Of a stretch of 64,000 nt of DNA, positions 18,947 through 27,579 are shown in pieces; position 1 is the first letter of the stretch; each line of letters opens with the position of its first letter. The stretch is taken from contig JAJONL010000001.1 of NCBI GenBank assembly GCA_021323395.1, positions 1-64,000 of the forward strand. Reading direction: 5' to 3'. The translations under genes were made by a program, and so were the position numbers. The notes under the pieces were generated by a model, which searched no databases, was not told the DNA's origin, and was given only the letters and a program-made list of their open reading frames with translations. The stretch is from Nitrospira sp. GTDB lineage: Bacteria; Nitrospirota; Nitrospiria; Nitrospirales; Nitrospiraceae.

Positions 18947-19249
18947 CGTGTCTTGTTCCTATCTCACAACCGCCTTGTCCGTCACATCCGCACGAGGGAA
19001 GCCTGAGCCGGCCCGAGTCTGGATCCTTGATTCCCCTACCGAAGCGGAACCGTCCCCTCGCCCAGCGGACTGGGATTCCGAGGAAGTTGTATGATATTGA
19101 ACCTCTCATGACTGCTGCTCTCTCAACAGGACGCCGGTCCTCCCGATGGGGATGAATATAACCATTGTTGAGCGGTAAAAATCTCATCACAATGGCGATG
19201 GCGTGCAGGCCACACGAGCACACCCCCGTGTGAGGACTATAGATCTTTC
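18947..19249. other. Intergenic stretch upstream of the signalling block
   Basis: About 300 bases holding the upstream region of the large signalling gene. No ORF with a credible start, no repeat and no clear -35/-10 pair was seen. Confidence 0.4.
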
Positions 19250-22200
19250 ATGTCGATACCTGAATCGTCGCTGAACATTCTTCTCATCAACGAACACTCC
19301 GACGAACTCAAACTGGTCACCTCCAGCCTGAGGGGATTCTTTGCCGACTGTCGTATTGAAGCCGGCTTTTCTTCGGAAGAGGCTCTCACCTTCAGTCAAC
19401 GGGCCGAATGGCACATCATCCTGATCGACCAGGACTTGAAGCCGGATAGTGGTCTCGACATCCTCGCTCGCGTTCGCCGTAATGCTCCGTACGCGGCGAT
19501 CATCCTTCAAACAAGCCAAAGCGATTCACAGATGGCCGTCCAAGCTTTGCAGAACGGGGCCGACTTTCTTCTCTTTAAGAGCTCACCCGGCTTTGTCACC
19601 GAGTTGCTCTTCTGCGTTCAGGAGGCCGTTGAGAAACGCGAGCTCCAAATGAGGCTTGACCGCACGTTTCAACGGCATCTGCGATTTATGGAGACGGTAA
19701 ACGATTTGCTCTATGAGCTCGACCAGGACGGACGCTTTGTTTACGTCAGTGCATCCGCAACCAGCATGCTCGGTTACACACCCGAGGAACTCGCCGGCCA
19801 GCATTATTCGATCCTTCTCCCGCCGTTGCAGGAGAGCGCCGGACGTTTTCGATTGAACGAACGGAGAGCCGGAAGTCGCTCAGTCCGACGGCTCGAACTG
19901 ACGTTGCATCGGAAAGCGCTTACAAATGTGCCGCCACTTACCGTATCCGTAGAAGTCACGGCCAAAGGCCTAGTCGACAACGCCCATCGATATATCGGCA
20001 CCGTAGGATTGCTTCGTGATCTGTCACAGGAAAAAGCTGATCAAGACCGCCTGGCACAATTGGAATCGAGACTCCAAGAGACCGATCGGCAACTTATCCT
20101 CTCCCAAGAAGCCGCCAGAGTATCACGTCAGCTCCAGCAACCACTCAGCACGCTCCTTCAGGACTCTCAACGATTGCTGAGCACAATCCAACTGAGCAAG
20201 TTCGAGCAGCACGTTCAAACCATGGTCGCTCAGGCCTCGCAGGCCAGCCAACTAAGTCAACAGCTGGTACAGGTCATTCACGCATGGCCCTTGGAAGGTG
20301 AACGTCTTCCACTCAATGACATTCTTCAGGAAATCGTGCAGTCGATCCAAGGGGGTCCACAAGGCAAAGAACTTCTCCTCTCAACATCTTTCGCTCCGGC
20401 GCTTCCCTTCATCCTGGGATCACGTGATGCCGTGATGGATCTCGCACGGATTCTGCTCGAATACGCGCAACGATGTATCTCTGGTCCTCCTACGCCATCA
20501 CGACTGATGTTACGCACCGAACCTCTCACCATTCAGGACAGCGGGCAGCTCCAAGACGACACAGCACCCCGATCCAAAGCCGCAGGAGCCTATGCCACAT
20601 TCACCATCCAAGAGGTCGAGAACGACAGGATGTCTTCTTCTCTGGCCTTGCCTGCAAGCAGCATTTCGCCGGAGAAGTTCTTACGGGCCCACCAGATCGT
20701 CCAGGCGCATGGCGGAGCCATTGAAATAGAGAGCCAGCCCGGTAGAGGCCTGAGGATCAAGGTGAGAATTCCTGCCATTGATGTTTCGGCCTGGCATGGC
20801 TCCCTGGAACAGCAGGAATCTTCTTCCTCAACCTCAGTTGCTTCACCCGCCTCCTCTCAAACAGGCATCTCAGCGCATACCGCACCACCCCACGAACGCC
20901 GCCGGTTCCCGCGCCGGTCGTCATCGTTCCCCGTTGACTTGACTGTCGGAAACAGCACGCTTCGTGGCGTCCTGCGAAACATAAGTGCGACAGGGACACT
21001 CCTGACGGTCCGTGACGTATTGCCACCTGTTCATATGCAACCGGCGTACATCGTCATCAAGACCACGGTAAGCTTTCTTGAACTCCAGGGTGTGGTTCAT
21101 GAGCGACCTGCGTCGAAGGCAGAGACCACCTTGCAGTCAACGAAGGACCTCGTCATATCGTTTGTACTGACCGGCGAGCAGGACCAAGGCGTGCTGCAAT
21201 CGCTTCTGGACGGATTGCAGGAGGGATCAACGACTGTGACCTTCGAAGCATTGATCCTTTCCTCTCCGGCCCTTGAGGATCGACAAGAAGAGTCGCCCTC
21301 ACATGGGAATTTTTCTGCGGATCGGCGCGAAACGATTCGCCTGGCGGTCACACGTCCCATCCGGCTCGCCGGCCCAGACCACCGAGCCGATCGTCCGCTT
21401 GGTGTAATCTTGAACTTGAGCCGAGACGGAGGGTGCCTCGAACTACCTGGCCATTCCGACTCTCTTCAGATCGACCAGATGATCAAATTGATTCCTGTCA
21501 CTCCATCCGTTCCAGCCGCCGCATCGACCCTGGAATCATCACACGAGCCATTGACCGCGCGCATCGTGTGGAGAAAGACTCTTTATGCCAAGATCACGCC
21601 TCGTCAGGTGCCGGCGGCCAGCGGGAGAGTCCGAGTAGGAGTGCGCTTTGAACACCTATCTGTCGCGCAGAAAGACAGGCTCCGAAACCTCCTGATACCG
21701 GCGATCGGCCCATCCGCTGATCTCGCAGAACCTCTGTCGAATGTTCCGGTGGCGACCGTGTGCCATAGCCTCAGAAACCGTGAAGGCCATTTGATTGCGC
21801 TCTGTCATGACAGTCCCACGCAAACGCGGGCATCGGCGCTTCCAGCGGTGCTGCTGTGTCCGGGCTATGGCATGACACAACAGGCCTACGTAGCCTTCGC
21901 GTATTTTCTCGCTGGAGACGGACTGCGCGTTCTGCGCTACGATCATAGCCGCCACATTGGCCTCAGCGACGGCGATCCAGTTCAAACAACATTCACATCC
22001 CTGGAAGACGACCTGGACACTGTCCTGGCATTTATACAGAAGGAGTGGCCTGGGACATCACTGACAGTTCTGGCGCCGGACATTCTCGGTCGAATTGCAT
22101 TACGTCGTCAGGATTGGCATCGACGGATTCGCCGGCTCATCCTGATCAACCCCACACTTGACCTTAGGCATTGCCTCACTACCCTTCATCGCCGCGATCT

Positions 22201-23449
22201 CGTGCAGGACCATTTGGCGGGGATCCGATTGGGCCTCGGTAACCTGTTGGGAATTCCGCTCGATATCGATCATTTTATAGCCGATGCCGTCGCGGCACAA
22301 TACACCGACGTGACGGCGCTGCAAAAGGATTTGACACACTGCGAAACAGATGTCGTGTTTGTGACATCCAACCCTGACGTCCAGGAAATCTCAATCCCCG
22401 CTCCATCACCGGCCATATTGAACGAGTCCGCGCGACTGCTCGGTGCACGAAGCAGCCACGTGAGCCTCCCCTCTCTCGTCATCGCTGCCGGGGACATCGC
22501 ACCCAAAATTTTGCTAGGCAGCTGGCAACGGCTCCGACAACTCTGTCACCAGCCTGATGCCGCAGTGCATGAATCCGCCGGGACCCTTCGAACTGTCTCC
22601 GGAGCCATTGCCATTCGCTCTCGCTATGAGCGGGATCGACTTCGCATCAAGTATGCCGTCGACGGAGCTGCCAGCGAGCGCCTCTGGGACGCACAAGCCA
22701 ACCTTACTCATACCCTGGACGATTTGCCGACCTATTGGCAGTATATCGATCAGCTCTATCAACTTTTACAGCCGCTTGACGGGGACTTGGCTCTTCTGGA
22801 TGTCGGATGCGGGATCCATTCCTTCGCCAGATTACTGCTCCTCAATCTCTCATACCGTCTTCGTGCTCAGACATGGCGCCACAGTCGACCGCTACGCTAC
22901 GTCGGAATGGATCACTCCCCTTCCTCGCTCCATGCCGCACAATCTGCAACAACAGATGCTTTGAGACATGTGGACGGTCTTTTCTCCGGCCGAATTTCCG
23001 GTCCAACACCAGTGGCCCAAAGCTGGACCCTTGCCCGATCATTAGAAGCGCTTCCGTTTGCCGACCATTCATTCGATCGCATCGTAGCGAATTTATCTCT
23101 CAGCTTTGCCACTTCCCCGCTCCAAACGTTACGCGAATTTTTCCGTGTGCTCCGTCCTGGAGGGAAGCTTGTCGTGAGTGCCTTTACGCCTGCTGCGGAC
23201 GTGGCCCTCTTGTATCGCCCGCCCTTGCATGAACGTGGCATCGATACGTTCACGGGAGACAGCCGCTTGACCTTGAATCGCATGGCACAGTGCTGCACAG
23301 CCCTCCGTATCGGTCAACTACACACATTTGAAGAAGACACACTGAGCGCCCGCTTTGAACAAATCACGCCCATCCCCGTGCGACTGCTGCGCGTGCTCTC
23401 CGGCCACATCTTGCTCGCGGCCGCAGAAAAACCTGATTCCTCTGGCTGA
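19250..23449 (+). CDS. Seven-part fusion: REC-PAS-kinase-like-PilZ-PilZ-LuxD-like hydrolase-SAM methyltransferase
   Basis: A 1399-residue cytosolic protein without membrane segments. Parts in order: receiver, residues 8-125 (phospho-acceptor Asp60 in ILIDQDL, Thr88, Lys110); PAS, about 145-255 (GRFVYVSASATSMLGYTPEEL); kinase-like region, 275-510, whose dimerisation helix reads VSRQLQQPLS with Arg293 where the phospho-His should be and an ATPase part lacking the N-box Asn; PilZ 1, 549-660 (RRFPRR, N577-x-S-x-x-G); PilZ 2, 690-815 (RRETIR, N722-x-S-x-x-G); alpha/beta hydrolase, 835-1105, with RYDHSRHIGLSDG, close to the LuxD acyltransferase motif; methyltransferase, 1110-1395 (LLDVGCG at 1182-1188, VLRPGGKLVVS). 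Likely output: c-di-GMP- and phosphorylation-controlled acyl/methyl transfer, which is inference. It heads a same-strand block with a kinase and two response regulators. Confidence 0.85.
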   Translation: MSIPESSLNILLINEHSDELKLVTSSLRGFFADCRIEAGFSSEEALTFSQRAEWHIILIDQDLKPDSGLDILARVRRNAPYAAIILQTSQSDSQMAVQALQNGADFLLFKSSPGFVTELLFCVQEAVEKRELQMRLDRTFQRHLRFMETVNDLLYELDQDGRFVYVSASATSMLGYTPEELAGQHYSILLPPLQESAGRFRLNERRAGSRSVRRLELTLHRKALTNVPPLTVSVEVTAKGLVDNAHRYIGTVGLLRDLSQEKADQDRLAQLESRLQETDRQLILSQEAARVSRQLQQPLSTLLQDSQRLLSTIQLSKFEQHVQTMVAQASQASQLSQQLVQVIHAWPLEGERLPLNDILQEIVQSIQGGPQGKELLLSTSFAPALPFILGSRDAVMDLARILLEYAQRCISGPPTPSRLMLRTEPLTIQDSGQLQDDTAPRSKAAGAYATFTIQEVENDRMSSSLALPASSISPEKFLRAHQIVQAHGGAIEIESQPGRGLRIKVRIPAIDVSAWHGSLEQQESSSSTSVASPASSQTGISAHTAPPHERRRFPRRSSSFPVDLTVGNSTLRGVLRNISATGTLLTVRDVLPPVHMQPAYIVIKTTVSFLELQGVVHERPASKAETTLQSTKDLVISFVLTGEQDQGVLQSLLDGLQEGSTTVTFEALILSSPALEDRQEESPSHGNFSADRRETIRLAVTRPIRLAGPDHRADRPLGVILNLSRDGGCLELPGHSDSLQIDQMIKLIPVTPSVPAAASTLESSHEPLTARIVWRKTLYAKITPRQVPAASGRVRVGVRFEHLSVAQKDRLRNLLIPAIGPSADLAEPLSNVPVATVCHSLRNREGHLIALCHDSPTQTRASALPAVLLCPGYGMTQQAYVAFAYFLAGDGLRVLRYDHSRHIGLSDGDPVQTTFTSLEDDLDTVLAFIQKEWPGTSLTVLAPDILGRIALRRQDWHRRIRRLILINPTLDLRHCLTTLHRRDLVQDHLAGIRLGLGNLLGIPLDIDHFIADAVAAQYTDVTALQKDLTHCETDVVFVTSNPDVQEISIPAPSPAILNESARLLGARSSHVSLPSLVIAAGDIAPKILLGSWQRLRQLCHQPDAAVHESAGTLRTVSGAIAIRSRYERDRLRIKYAVDGAASERLWDAQANLTHTLDDLPTYWQYIDQLYQLLQPLDGDLALLDVGCGIHSFARLLLLNLSYRLRAQTWRHSRPLRYVGMDHSPSSLHAAQSATTDALRHVDGLFSGRISGPTPVAQSWTLARSLEALPFADHSFDRIVANLSLSFATSPLQTLREFFRVLRPGGKLVVSAFTPAADVALLYRPPLHERGIDTFTGDSRLTLNRMAQCCTALRIGQLHTFEEDTLSARFEQITPIPVRLLRVLSGHILLAAAEKPDSSG

Positions 23450-23554: not shown

Positions 23555-24838
23555 ATGACATGCGACAACGATAATCCGCGCCCCCCTCGCCAGCCAGTTG
23601 CCGTGGATCTCATCGAGGTGATCAGCGACTTTGCCGGAGCTGTGGGAAGGGCGAAGGACCTTTCAACTCTAGGCGACTCCATTGTAGGCGCCCTTCTACA
23701 ACAGTCCGGCTTCACCGAAGCGGCCATCTGGGCCAGAGAGGCCGATCCAGCACAGTACGGCCTCCTTGCATGCGTCGGGCAACACACGAGTTTCACGCTT
23801 CCGCGGACACTACCCGGCAACCACAGCCTCATTACGTGCCTTGCCGACTCTTGCCGCCTGCTTCGATATGAGCAGAAACGGGCCTCGCGAGTTGAGGAAG
23901 CATTGGCGCCAATGCGAGCAGCCATTTGTATTCCACTACATTCACACAAAGGCCTCGTGGGACTCTGCATTTTAGGCCCGCCCAGTCGGGACATTCAGCT
24001 CAGCGAAACCGACATCGCAGTCACTCAGGCGATCGCCCGCATTGCCGGTAATGCTTTGGATCAGCACATGGCGCAGGATGATTTGCGTCGATCGTCTACG
24101 CTGATGAGACGAGCCGACCGGCTGCGCTCTTTGGAGATTATGACAGACGGATTTGCTCATGAAATCCGCAATCCGCTCACATCGATCAAAACATTTATTC
24201 AACTGGCTCCCCAACGACTCCACGATTCCGCCTTCATCAAGGATTTCAGCCGACTGGCCATCGAAGACGTTCACCGCATCGAGCGCTTGTTGCATGAGAT
24301 TCTTGATTACGCCGGCTCCATCATTCCACATCCCACCGATGCGGACTTGAATGAACTCGTCACCTCATGTCTCGGTTTCGTCTCATCCGCTGCGTCGCAA
24401 CGAGGTACTCGCTTGCATACCGACCTGGCACCTGACCTCCCCCTCCTTTCGGTCGACCGCCAACAGATCAAACAGGTGCTTTTTAACCTCCTCTTGAACG
24501 CGCTGGACGCGATGCCGGACGGCCATGGAGTGATCAGCATCCAGACCCGGTTGCTTCCGCTCGTCGACGGCGCCTCATGGGTGCAAGTGCGGGTCAAGGA
24601 CGAAGGATGTGGTATCGCACCGGAGCATCTGGAACACATTTTCGATCCATTTTTCACCACCAAGCACTCCGATAGCGTCGGCGACGGAGCAGGCCTGGGG
24701 CTCACCACAGCGTACCAGATCGTTCATGACCACGGTGGTCTGCTGCAGGTCGGTAGTCAGGTCGGGGTCGGATCCACGTTTTCCGTCCATCTTCCCGCAC
24801 AGAGTGTGCATACCACAGTGTCAGCAGCACGGGAGTAA
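23555..24838 (+). CDS. GAF-domain sensor histidine kinase
   Basis: Soluble two-component sensor kinase of 427 residues with no membrane segment. Residues about 20-175 are GAF-like. The dimerisation/phospho-acceptor helix reads GFAHEIRNPLTSIKTFIQL with His202, typical of NtrB-type kinases. The ATPase domain has the N-box (QVLFNLLLNALDAM), G1 (DEGCGI), F-box (IFDPFFTTK) and G2 (GAGLGLTTAYQIVHDHGG). It ends one base before the NtrC-type regulator gene, so the two are a cognate pair. The input is probably cytosolic (small ligand on GAF), not identified. Confidence 0.93.
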   Translation: MTCDNDNPRPPRQPVAVDLIEVISDFAGAVGRAKDLSTLGDSIVGALLQQSGFTEAAIWAREADPAQYGLLACVGQHTSFTLPRTLPGNHSLITCLADSCRLLRYEQKRASRVEEALAPMRAAICIPLHSHKGLVGLCILGPPSRDIQLSETDIAVTQAIARIAGNALDQHMAQDDLRRSSTLMRRADRLRSLEIMTDGFAHEIRNPLTSIKTFIQLAPQRLHDSAFIKDFSRLAIEDVHRIERLLHEILDYAGSIIPHPTDADLNELVTSCLGFVSSAASQRGTRLHTDLAPDLPLLSVDRQQIKQVLFNLLLNALDAMPDGHGVISIQTRLLPLVDGASWVQVRVKDEGCGIAPEHLEHIFDPFFTTKHSDSVGDGAGLGLTTAYQIVHDHGGLLQVGSQVGVGSTFSVHLPAQSVHTTVSAARE

Positions 24839-24839
24839 C

Positions 24840-26252
24840 ATGAAAAAACGGGTACTGCTTGTCGATGACGAACCACGAGTCCGCGCATCGTTGAAGGCGG
24901 TTCTAGAGCCGTCTTATGACATTCTCGAAGCTGCGGACGCGGAGGGGGGTCTCCAGGCTTTCAAGCGTGAAGCTCCTGATCTCGTCCTCTTGGATGTAAT
25001 TTTGCCGGGAACGGACGGTCTGGCAGTGCTCCAAGCGATGCGCACGGAAGGGCGTGCAGTGCCGGTGATCATGCTGACCGGAACCAAATCCGTCAAAACG
25101 GCGGTCGACGCCATGAAGATGGGCGCCGCAGACTATCTGTCCAAGCCGTTCGACGTAGAAGAACTCCAAATTGTCATCGAACGGGCATTGGGAAAGCAGG
25201 AATTAGAGCTGGAGGTCCGGCAATTACGCGCCCAAGTGGTGCAGCGATACGCCTTTCACAATCTGATCGGCAAAAGCGCTTCCATGCAGGAAATCTATGC
25301 CAAGATCGAGCAGGTCGCAGACAGTCGCACCACCGTCCTGGTCACGGGTGAGAGCGGCACCGGAAAAGAACTCGTGGCCAAAGCGATCCATTACAACAGC
25401 ACGCGGCGGGAGCGGCCTTTTGTGGCGCTCAACTGCGCAGCTCTCCCGGAAACTCTGATTGAAAGTGAACTGTTCGGACACGAAAAAGGTTCCTTCACCG
25501 ATGCCACGGCCCGGCGTGTGGGGCAATTCGAATTGGCCCATACCGGCACACTTTTTTTGGATGAAATCGGCGACCTCAGTCCGGCCACCCAAGCCAAGCT
25601 TCTGCGGGTACTGCAAGAACGCGAGTTCACTCGAGTCGGAGGCGTGCAGTCCATCAAAGTCGACGTGCGGATCGTTGCCGCCACCAATAAAAACCTCGAC
25701 GAGCTGGTCCGGAAAGGTCTCTTCCGAGAAGATCTGTATTACCGCATCAATGTCATCGCATTGTATTTACCCCCGTTGCGGGAGCGGGGCGAAGATATCC
25801 CGCTCCTGGCCAAACACTTTCTCGCTAAGCGCATCGAAGAAGAGAAACGGCCTTCGCAGGAATTCAGCAAAGAATCGCTCGAGCTGGTTTCGCACTATCC
25901 ATGGCCGGGAAATGTGCGCGAGATGGAAAACATCATCGAGCAAGCGTTCATCTGGTCCAAGGGCTCCCATGTGATTCTGCCCGAGCATCTGCCCACGATA
26001 CTGCGCGCCGACACACGATCGACGTCGCTCCGTGACGACACACTCGCGGGAAGGCTCTCTCTCGAGAAAGCGGTGATGGAATTTGAGCGTGAAATCATCC
26101 TGGACGCACTCAAACGGACCACTTACGTACAAACACACGCGGCCACCATGCTAGGGATCAGTCGCCGCATGCTGAAATATCGCATGGACACGTTAGGAAT
26201 CAGCAGGCCGGACAGCGGCTCACCGCCCGAGCCATCGGTGACTCAGGAATGA
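24840..26252 (+). CDS. NtrC-family sigma54-dependent response regulator
   Basis: Response regulator of 470 residues; start ATG 24840, one base after the stop of the kinase gene. Receiver residues 1-120 with phospho-acceptor Asp52 (LVLLDVILPGTDG), Thr and Lys (LSKPFD). AAA+ domain about 140-365: Walker A GESGTGKE, sigma54-contact loop, Walker B TLFLDEIGD, R-finger region LYYRINV and sensor II WPGNVREMENI. The sigma54 loop reads GSFTDA, not the standard GAFTGA. C-terminal Fis-type helix-turn-helix about 415-455 (HAATMLGISRRMLKYRMDTLGI). It should activate sigma54 promoters when phosphorylated; targets unknown. Confidence 0.94.
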   Translation: MKKRVLLVDDEPRVRASLKAVLEPSYDILEAADAEGGLQAFKREAPDLVLLDVILPGTDGLAVLQAMRTEGRAVPVIMLTGTKSVKTAVDAMKMGAADYLSKPFDVEELQIVIERALGKQELELEVRQLRAQVVQRYAFHNLIGKSASMQEIYAKIEQVADSRTTVLVTGESGTGKELVAKAIHYNSTRRERPFVALNCAALPETLIESELFGHEKGSFTDATARRVGQFELAHTGTLFLDEIGDLSPATQAKLLRVLQEREFTRVGGVQSIKVDVRIVAATNKNLDELVRKGLFREDLYYRINVIALYLPPLRERGEDIPLLAKHFLAKRIEEEKRPSQEFSKESLELVSHYPWPGNVREMENIIEQAFIWSKGSHVILPEHLPTILRADTRSTSLRDDTLAGRLSLEKAVMEFEREIILDALKRTTYVQTHAATMLGISRRMLKYRMDTLGISRPDSGSPPEPSVTQE

Positions 26253-26439: not shown

Positions 26440-27579
26440 ATGGGAACTCACACACCTGTCGAGTACGTAGGCGAGAAGCCGTCAGTCCTCGTCGTCGACG
26501 ACGAAACCGGCCCTCGGGACGCGCTCAAAGTCATCCTCCGCCCCTTCTTCACGATCCACTCCGCCGACAACGCGAAATCCGCCCTTCAAGTCCTCAAAGA
26601 ACGCCACATCGATCTCATCACGCTGGATCAAAAATTACCCGATCGGCAGGGCATCGATCTCCTCCAAGACATCAAACAGGATTATGCGGATATCGAAGTC
26701 ATCATCATCACCGGCTATGGTAGCTTGAAGTCCGCGATGGAAGGCATTCGATACGGTGCAGCGGGGTACCTGCTCAAGCCGTTCAATGTCACCGAACTTA
26801 TCACCCTGATCAACCAAACGCTGGAGAAAAAGCAGCGCTTGGACTACTTGCGAGCGTTCCTTAAATCATCGACGGCCTTATGGGGCACCGAACAGGAGGC
26901 GGCTCAAGCCTGGAAGGACGTGCAGTCGCACTATTTTGCCATCGGCAAGCCCTCACCTGAGCTGGTGGGCACAGTCGACGTAACCGCTCTGATCCCTTTG
27001 CTGTCCGACCTTCTTGAAGCCAAGGACCGTCAACTGTTGAACCATTGCAGCCGAGTCAGTTTTTACGCGTCGCTCCTCGCAAATCAGATGAATCTTCCAC
27101 TCCCCGAACAGAAGGCGCTGGCGCTCGGAGCCTTTCTCCACGACATCGGAAAAATCAGCCTGTGCAATTATAAATATTCATCCAATGAAGACGAGTGCGT
27201 GGGAAATAGCGCCTACGGCAAAGAATACTCCGAGGCGGGCGCGCGTATGCTCTTACCGCTGGGGTTCCAAGCCGAGGTGGGTCAAATCGTGGCCTATCAC
27301 CGCGAACGCTTTGACGGCGCGGGCAACCCACACGGATTGCAGGGAGCCGGCATTCCTCTCTTGGCACGCATCGTCGCCATCGCGCAGGCCTTTGATAATC
27401 TTACGGTCGACATGCCGGGGCATCATCCGGTGTCTATCGATGACGCCATCCGCCAAATAACCCTGCAAGCAGATACGTACTTTGACCCCAAGCTGACAGA
27501 GGTGTTCGCACGCGTGGTGCGGGAATGCAAATCCTCCTTACCAGCCCTCGCTATTGCTAAGACATCGCCCGACAATTAG
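26440..27579 (+). CDS. Response regulator with a variant HD-GYP-like domain
   Basis: 379 residues: receiver 12-130 (Asp63 in LITLDQKLPD, Thr91, Lys113) followed by a 60-residue linker and an HD hydrolase region 185-360. The first site is intact (HDIGK, His234-Asp235), but the signature segment reads YHRERFDGAGNPHGL, so the family's HHE becomes Tyr-His-Arg-Glu and GYP becomes GNP; the later metal Asp appears as Gln316 (AIAQAFDNL). Classic HD-GYP proteins hydrolyse cyclic di-GMP. Here several metal ligands are changed, so it may be a weak or non-catalytic regulator. ATG 26440 follows a GGAGCG-like site; 187 bases separate it from the NtrC-type gene. Confidence 0.85.
   Translation: MGTHTPVEYVGEKPSVLVVDDETGPRDALKVILRPFFTIHSADNAKSALQVLKERHIDLITLDQKLPDRQGIDLLQDIKQDYADIEVIIITGYGSLKSAMEGIRYGAAGYLLKPFNVTELITLINQTLEKKQRLDYLRAFLKSSTALWGTEQEAAQAWKDVQSHYFAIGKPSPELVGTVDVTALIPLLSDLLEAKDRQLLNHCSRVSFYASLLANQMNLPLPEQKALALGAFLHDIGKISLCNYKYSSNEDECVGNSAYGKEYSEAGARMLLPLGFQAEVGQIVAYHRERFDGAGNPHGLQGAGIPLLARIVAIAQAFDNLTVDMPGHHPVSIDDAIRQITLQADTYFDPKLTEVFARVVRECKSSLPALAIAKTSPDN

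Follow-up and report, generated by a model that had tools for sequence, protein, structure and literature searches.

LuxD frees fatty acids from acyl carriers, and NifL is a kinase-like regulator that is bound to the sigma-54 activator NifA. In Ralstonia, the methyltransferase PhcB makes 3-hydroxymyristic or 3-hydroxypalmitic acid methyl ester (3-OH MAME/PAME), and the histidine kinase PhcS senses the product (PMC8578825). The gibberellin receptor GID1 arose from an alpha/beta hydrolase whose catalytic histidine was lost (PMC3531792). Here we describe P0001, a seven-part protein of 1399 residues from Nitrospira sp. that is encoded, from an ATG start, at positions 19250..23449 of the forward strand (on which all window features below lie) in a stretch of 64,000 nucleotides referred to as the window (GenBank assembly GCA_021323395.1, contig JAJONL010000001.1, positions 1 to 64,000). 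The reading to which we give roughly even credence is that P0001 is a repurposed synthase, i.e. a non-catalytic intracellular regulator derived from a PilZ-LuxD-like-methyltransferase enzyme. That a signal-making enzyme became a regulator is suggested by the loss of catalytic residues in all 27 full-length members from the genus, together with a neighbouring kinase that has no membrane sensor.

The LuxD-like hydrolase part and its catalytic residues

An earlier interpretation of the window made from its letters (hereafter the sequence-only reading) had claimed a single uninterrupted frame of 1399 codons, and an open reading frame check of positions 19250-23449 bears this out, with zero interruptions and no internal stop. 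The order of parts that it proposed, receiver, PAS, histidine-kinase-like, PilZ, PilZ, LuxD-like alpha/beta hydrolase and methyltransferase, is likewise recovered by Pfam matches and by a fold match for the kinase-like part. The same architecture, free of stops, is present in 27/27 unbroken same-genus genomes at 50-78% identity to the window; the genus alignment that underlies the counts below holds 27 full-length copies, the window's included, and two further copies are split by contig ends. Several further genera of the family Nitrospiraceae also have full-length copies (29-36% identity), and none was found beyond this family among 246 genomes of the phylum. A frameshift or misassembly is ruled out, since all unbroken genomes of the genus carry the gene at full length, as do others across the Nitrospiraceae. 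In close pairs, the ratio of nonsynonymous to synonymous substitution rates (dN/dS) is 0.21-0.27 for the whole protein, 0.16-0.28 for the hydrolase, 0.11-0.24 for the methyltransferase and, more loosely, 0.32-0.76 for the second PilZ domain; all domains are under purifying selection, and the low values indicate that the main parts are maintained. Viral relatives were limited to weak matches confined to the methyltransferase range, and the best 20 plasmid matches listed reach only the receiver/PAS/kinase part.

The hydrolase part (21755..22564, residues 836-1105) matches Pfam Hydrolase_4 (5.6e-10) and, over residues 836-1043, the LuxD family Acyl_transf_2 (PF02273; 3.3e-7, 30.3 bits versus a cut-off of 20.3), whereas against the NCBI LuxD model P0001 reaches 32 bits, far below the cut-off of 420. 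A model of residues 834-1399 (predicted local distance difference test, pLDDT, 88.5) finds LuxD 1tht as its best match in the PDB (1.4e-13, template modelling score 0.76-0.78). The resemblance to LuxD that the sequence-only reading had seen in this segment therefore stands, as 1tht is the closest solved structure and RYDHSRHIGLSDG, which is near invariant across the genus, is found here. We take the catalytic triad of 1tht to be Ser114-Asp211-His241, from established knowledge and the alignment to this structure. An intact relative (L138) aligns with 1tht across all three residues (3.5e-25); in the window hydrolase, Asp944 (22079..22081) occupies the Ser114 column. Asp944 is present in 27/27 genus orthologues, and the columns of the triad Asp and His are variable. 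As judged from these columns, P0001 is not a working LuxD-type acyltransferase, because the Ser-Asp-His triad is lost. The sequence-only reading had envisaged a fully active acyl- and methyltransferase gated by phosphorylation and cyclic di-GMP (c-di-GMP), a proposal with which the LuxD-like fold and motif agree; with Ser114 replaced throughout the genus and the triad Asp and His not conserved, its working acyltransferase falls away, and we consider such an enzyme most improbable. The luxC/luxE operon of a fatty acid reductase is also absent at the locus, where the neighbours are a kinase, a sigma-54 regulator and a receiver-HD protein.

The invariance of Asp944 raises another explanation, namely that this residue serves as the nucleophile of a hydrolase of a different type. 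Haloalkane dehalogenases and epoxide hydrolases employ an Asp nucleophile and require a His. Asp is found at this position across the wider clade as well as in 27/27 genus sequences, and one relative (L106) combines it with the triad Asp and His; however, the seven-part clade has no such His and does not conserve the acid, and both fold and sequence group the hydrolase with LuxD, so that we think this chemistry quite unlikely.

Partner kinases and the order of losses

In all but a few cases, the gene downstream of P0001 and its relatives encodes a GAF histidine kinase. In the window, this partner (23555..24838, 427 residues) has a GAF-HisKA-HATPase arrangement with no membrane segment, and it is homologous to the C-terminal part of the seven-transmembrane (7TM) kinases that stand beside intact enzymes. 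At loci with an intact triad, the downstream kinase has 716-1009 residues and 3-13 hydrophobic segments and is multi-pass in 30/30 cases, whereas at Asp-type loci it has at most 482 residues and 0-1 hydrophobic segments in 53/53 cases (a single stretch in two). Pfam-scanned examples of the kinases beside intact enzymes carry one or two HisKA_7TM sensors. An independent Pfam search of 147 genomes of the order located HisKA_7TM just downstream of 47 of the 52 intact-type genes versus none of the 52 seven-part genes; the five intact-type genes without it, two of which are Asn variants described below, have no HisKA_7TM match on their contig. In L137 (8882-13879), the intact PilZ-PilZ-LuxD-like-methyltransferase enzyme and its HisKA_7TM-GAF-HisKA-HATPase kinase form one 1666-residue frame, with the kinase at the C-terminus and thus distinct from the kinase-like head of P0001; enzyme and 7TM kinase are likewise one 1666-residue frame in G322, although these two records are possibly one genome under two names. 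The pairing extends to other families of the phylum (L148-L150), and it is hardly due to chance, as it spans several families whose genomes have one to four such domains each. This context favors the idea, raised by the sequence-only reading, that a lipid signal is made, as intact relatives adjoin a 7TM sensor kinase, but it does not rescue P0001 itself as the acyltransferase.

The only two HisKA_7TM domains of the window genome both lie beside an intact paralogue on another contig (C99; L039, 4449-7214), and its only Acyl_transf_2 domains are those of the window gene and this paralogue. P0001 might then regulate the intact copy (G000 C99) as a subunit or act as its decoy, and both genes are indeed present in 15/16 further same-genus genomes sampled. 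The two loci are unlinked, however, and the seven-part gene occurs without an intact copy in one genome of the genus (G020) and, in most other genera, in many genomes; as so many genomes have no intact paralogue, we regard this role as unlikely.

In an evolutionary comparison set of 93 relatives, all proteins that bear the kinase-like head show Asp at the nucleophile position and have lost the triad, whereas headless genes keep Ser-Asp-His, the exceptions being three Asn variants, L106, the contig-cut seven-part genes L072 and L073, and a short frame (L100) that is placed within the triad-less clade. The Asn variants (L134, L132 and L055) have Asn for the nucleophile Ser and keep the triad Asp and His, and the kinase downstream of L134 is of the 7TM type. 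The seven-part proteins form a single clade (SH-aLRT support 100). L106 (1-4157) has a D-D-H triad and one PilZ domain, and a soluble GAF kinase already adjoins it; a tree that joins L106 and the seven-part set in one clade has the higher likelihood and is not rejected (approximately unbiased test, p-AU 0.66). With L106 grouped in this manner, the exchange of Ser for Asp would have come first, followed by loss of the triad Asp and His and acquisition of the head. At the corresponding position of the chromosome, L128 and L138 encode a receiver-PAS-PilZ-PilZ-hydrolase-methyltransferase protein with an intact triad, and L129 has an intact triad with receiver-PAS-PilZ as a separate neighbouring gene; all three keep the 7TM kinase along with the triad. 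As L106, L128, L129 and L138 are intermediates that are still living, the order of loss is testable.

Several records deserve mention in their own right. L145 (3700-5913) is a receiver-PAS-PilZ-methyltransferase protein that has no hydrolase part, and a HisKA_7TM kinase lies close by on its contig (G186 C13). The contig of L073 is labelled Nitrosospira and bears a Nitrospira-type seven-part gene, so that the record name is probably wrong. The contig of L135 is named Nitrospinota and bears an intact enzyme and membrane kinase very similar to a Nitrospirales copy, which may reflect transfer or mis-binning.

Methyltransferase, sensory modules and the proposed mechanism

The C-terminal class I S-adenosylmethionine (SAM)-methyltransferase domain (22625..23434, residues 1126-1395; motif I DxGCGxH) matches Pfam Methyltransf_11 over residues 1183-1309 (2.5e-12). 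It could still be active, in which case the dead hydrolase would hold or present a substrate that is methylated under the control of the receiver and PilZ domains. This explanation agrees with the invariance of the motif I Asp/Gly/Gly residues (n=27) and an acid at the post-I position (26 Asp, 1 Glu), with the low dN/dS of this part, and with L145, which retains receiver-PAS-PilZ-methyltransferase without the hydrolase. Set against these points, the third motif I Gly is replaced by His1190 and the adenine-site Asp by Ser1264, both in 27/27 sequences, and further SAM contacts, the post-I acid among them, are gone from sister clades. We judge an active methyltransferase to be a possible but doubtful account of the protein.

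The first PilZ domain (20891..21274, residues 548-675) has invariant RxxxR and NxSxxG motifs, and the second (21314..21724, residues 689-825) has an invariant RxxxR and N[S/N/G]xxG, the Ser of its [D/N]xSxxG motif being Asn or Gly in 4/27 sequences (Pfam match for the two PilZ domains 2.1e-12). By these motifs, both are candidate c-di-GMP receptors. At the N-terminus, the receiver domain (19277..19582, residues 10-111; Pfam Response_reg 9e-11) has an invariant phospho-acceptor Asp60 and Thr88 (27/27), and its acidic pair is Asn14-Glu15 (Asn14 27/27; Glu15 26/27, with Asp in one). It is followed by a PAS domain (19682..20020, residues 145-257; Pfam 2.7e-11) and by the histidine-kinase-like region (20057..20794, residues 270-515), which has the fold of a dimerization/histidine phosphotransfer and catalytic/ATP-binding (DHp-CA) core. 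The HisKA (E 0.32) and HATPase_c (E 0.11) matches of the latter are both below the Pfam threshold. When residues 6-515 are modelled with AlphaFold2 (pLDDT 79), PAS-DHp-CA histidine kinases are the best matches (4gcz, 2.8e-16), although the domain arrangement of the model is unreliable because the predicted template modelling score (pTM) is only 0.37. The position of the phospho-His is taken by Arg293 (20126-20128) in 27/27 sequences, and the N box is missing in the window and the genus; a sister-genus member (L040) still has His at the former position.

The preferred reading, a synthase turned into a non-catalytic regulator, builds on what is observed in the architecture, the residue losses, the constraint, the synteny and the co-loss of triad and 7TM sensor; from these we infer the ligand, c-di-GMP binding, signalling route and all biochemistry of P0001. 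The ancestral enzyme would have responded to c-di-GMP, taking an acyl chain off its carrier and then methylating it, and the adjacent 7TM-GAF histidine kinase would have sensed the acyl product, perhaps a methyl ester. At the Nitrospiraceae locus, a receiver-PAS-kinase-like head would have been gained in frame, with loss of the hydrolase triad and of the neighbouring kinase's membrane sensor. P0001 would now combine phosphorylation of its receiver with a PAS cue and c-di-GMP, perhaps along with a ligand bound in the pocket of the dead hydrolase or in that of the methyltransferase. Through protein contact, it would convey the result to the GAF kinase and the sigma-54 regulator, which are encoded in the same direction. 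Three points weigh against this reading. The invariance of Asp944 could mean new chemistry; the methyltransferase may still be active, as motif I is kept and the domain is among the most conserved parts; and the co-loss of triad and 7TM sensor represents one event, perhaps two with L106, so that the 53 Asp-type loci are not independent. A bolder version, which we offer tentatively, is that the intact PilZ-LuxD-like-methyltransferase enzyme and 7TM-GAF kinase of Nitrospirota constitute an undescribed c-di-GMP-gated lipid-signal system, and that the seven-part protein of Nitrospira is its synthase turned intracellular receptor, whose dead hydrolase pocket would bind an acyl ligand (or trap it via Asp944) and control the sigma-54 regulator.

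The surrounding genes and upstream region complete the locus. At window-type loci, the partner kinase gene is followed by an NtrC-type sigma-54 response regulator (24837..26252), which is syntenic throughout, and by a response regulator with an HD (HD-GYP-like) domain (26440..27579), also syntenic; by eye, the translation of the latter has GNP at the GYP position of HD-GYP enzymes. In Nitrospira moscoviensis (L102, 7367-12508), the GAF kinase and receiver are deleted and the methyltransferase is in frame with a sigma-54 AAA+ domain (1714-residue frame). Upstream of the gene, about 75 bp are strikingly conserved in the genus (19033..19110), with CCCCTACNGAAG and CCCCTC boxes followed by TGTATGATATTGAA; this block resembles an extended -10 promoter with two activator boxes and is probably the promoter. 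The two-box pattern has one mismatch-free site in the whole genome, this one, and a genome-wide regulon was therefore dropped. No sigma-54 -24/-12 signal above background was found upstream of the gene, and the region has no match to a known RNA in Rfam.

Relation to known systems

Nitrospira are drivers of nitrite oxidation and comammox, and to our knowledge little is known of their cell-cell and c-di-GMP signalling. With the intact enzyme/kinase pairs, a possible new lipid signal and the kinase that receives it become concrete candidates that can be expressed, and the seven-part protein, if our reading is true, would be a case from bacteria in which an alpha/beta hydrolase changed from enzyme to regulator. 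The sequence-only reading had asked whether the architecture was already described, and in the literature searched, which was partial in coverage, no description was found of the architecture, the enzyme/kinase pair, LuxD in connection with Nitrospira, or such pseudoenzymes. Each part by itself is known; what is new, as far as we can tell, is their combination, together with the conserved pseudoenzyme and the pairing of enzyme and 7TM kinase.

The hydrolase of P0001 has its best sequence and fold match in the Vibrio harveyi myristoyl-ACP thioesterase/acyltransferase LuxD (1tht); unlike LuxD, it has none of the Ser, Asp and His and shares its chain with receiver, PAS, PilZ and methyltransferase domains. 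By analogy with PhcB/PhcS, a methyltransferase enzyme and a membrane sensor kinase stand directly side by side in the intact relatives, which look like candidates for synthase/sensor-kinase signalling but differ in fusing acyl-transferase and PilZ parts to the methyltransferase and in having a HisKA_7TM-GAF kinase. The window locus itself does not qualify as such a pair, as its triad is lost and its kinase is soluble. Like NifL, whose structure (9qq6) is among the fold matches of the residue 6-515 model, P0001 has PAS and kinase-like modules and, as seen from the gene order, adjoins the gene of a sigma-54 activator, whereas NifL has no receiver, PilZ, hydrolase or methyltransferase. GID1 is a plant protein of another hydrolase family, but in the reading that we prefer, the P0001 hydrolase would, like GID1, be an enzyme fold turned non-catalytic signalling protein.

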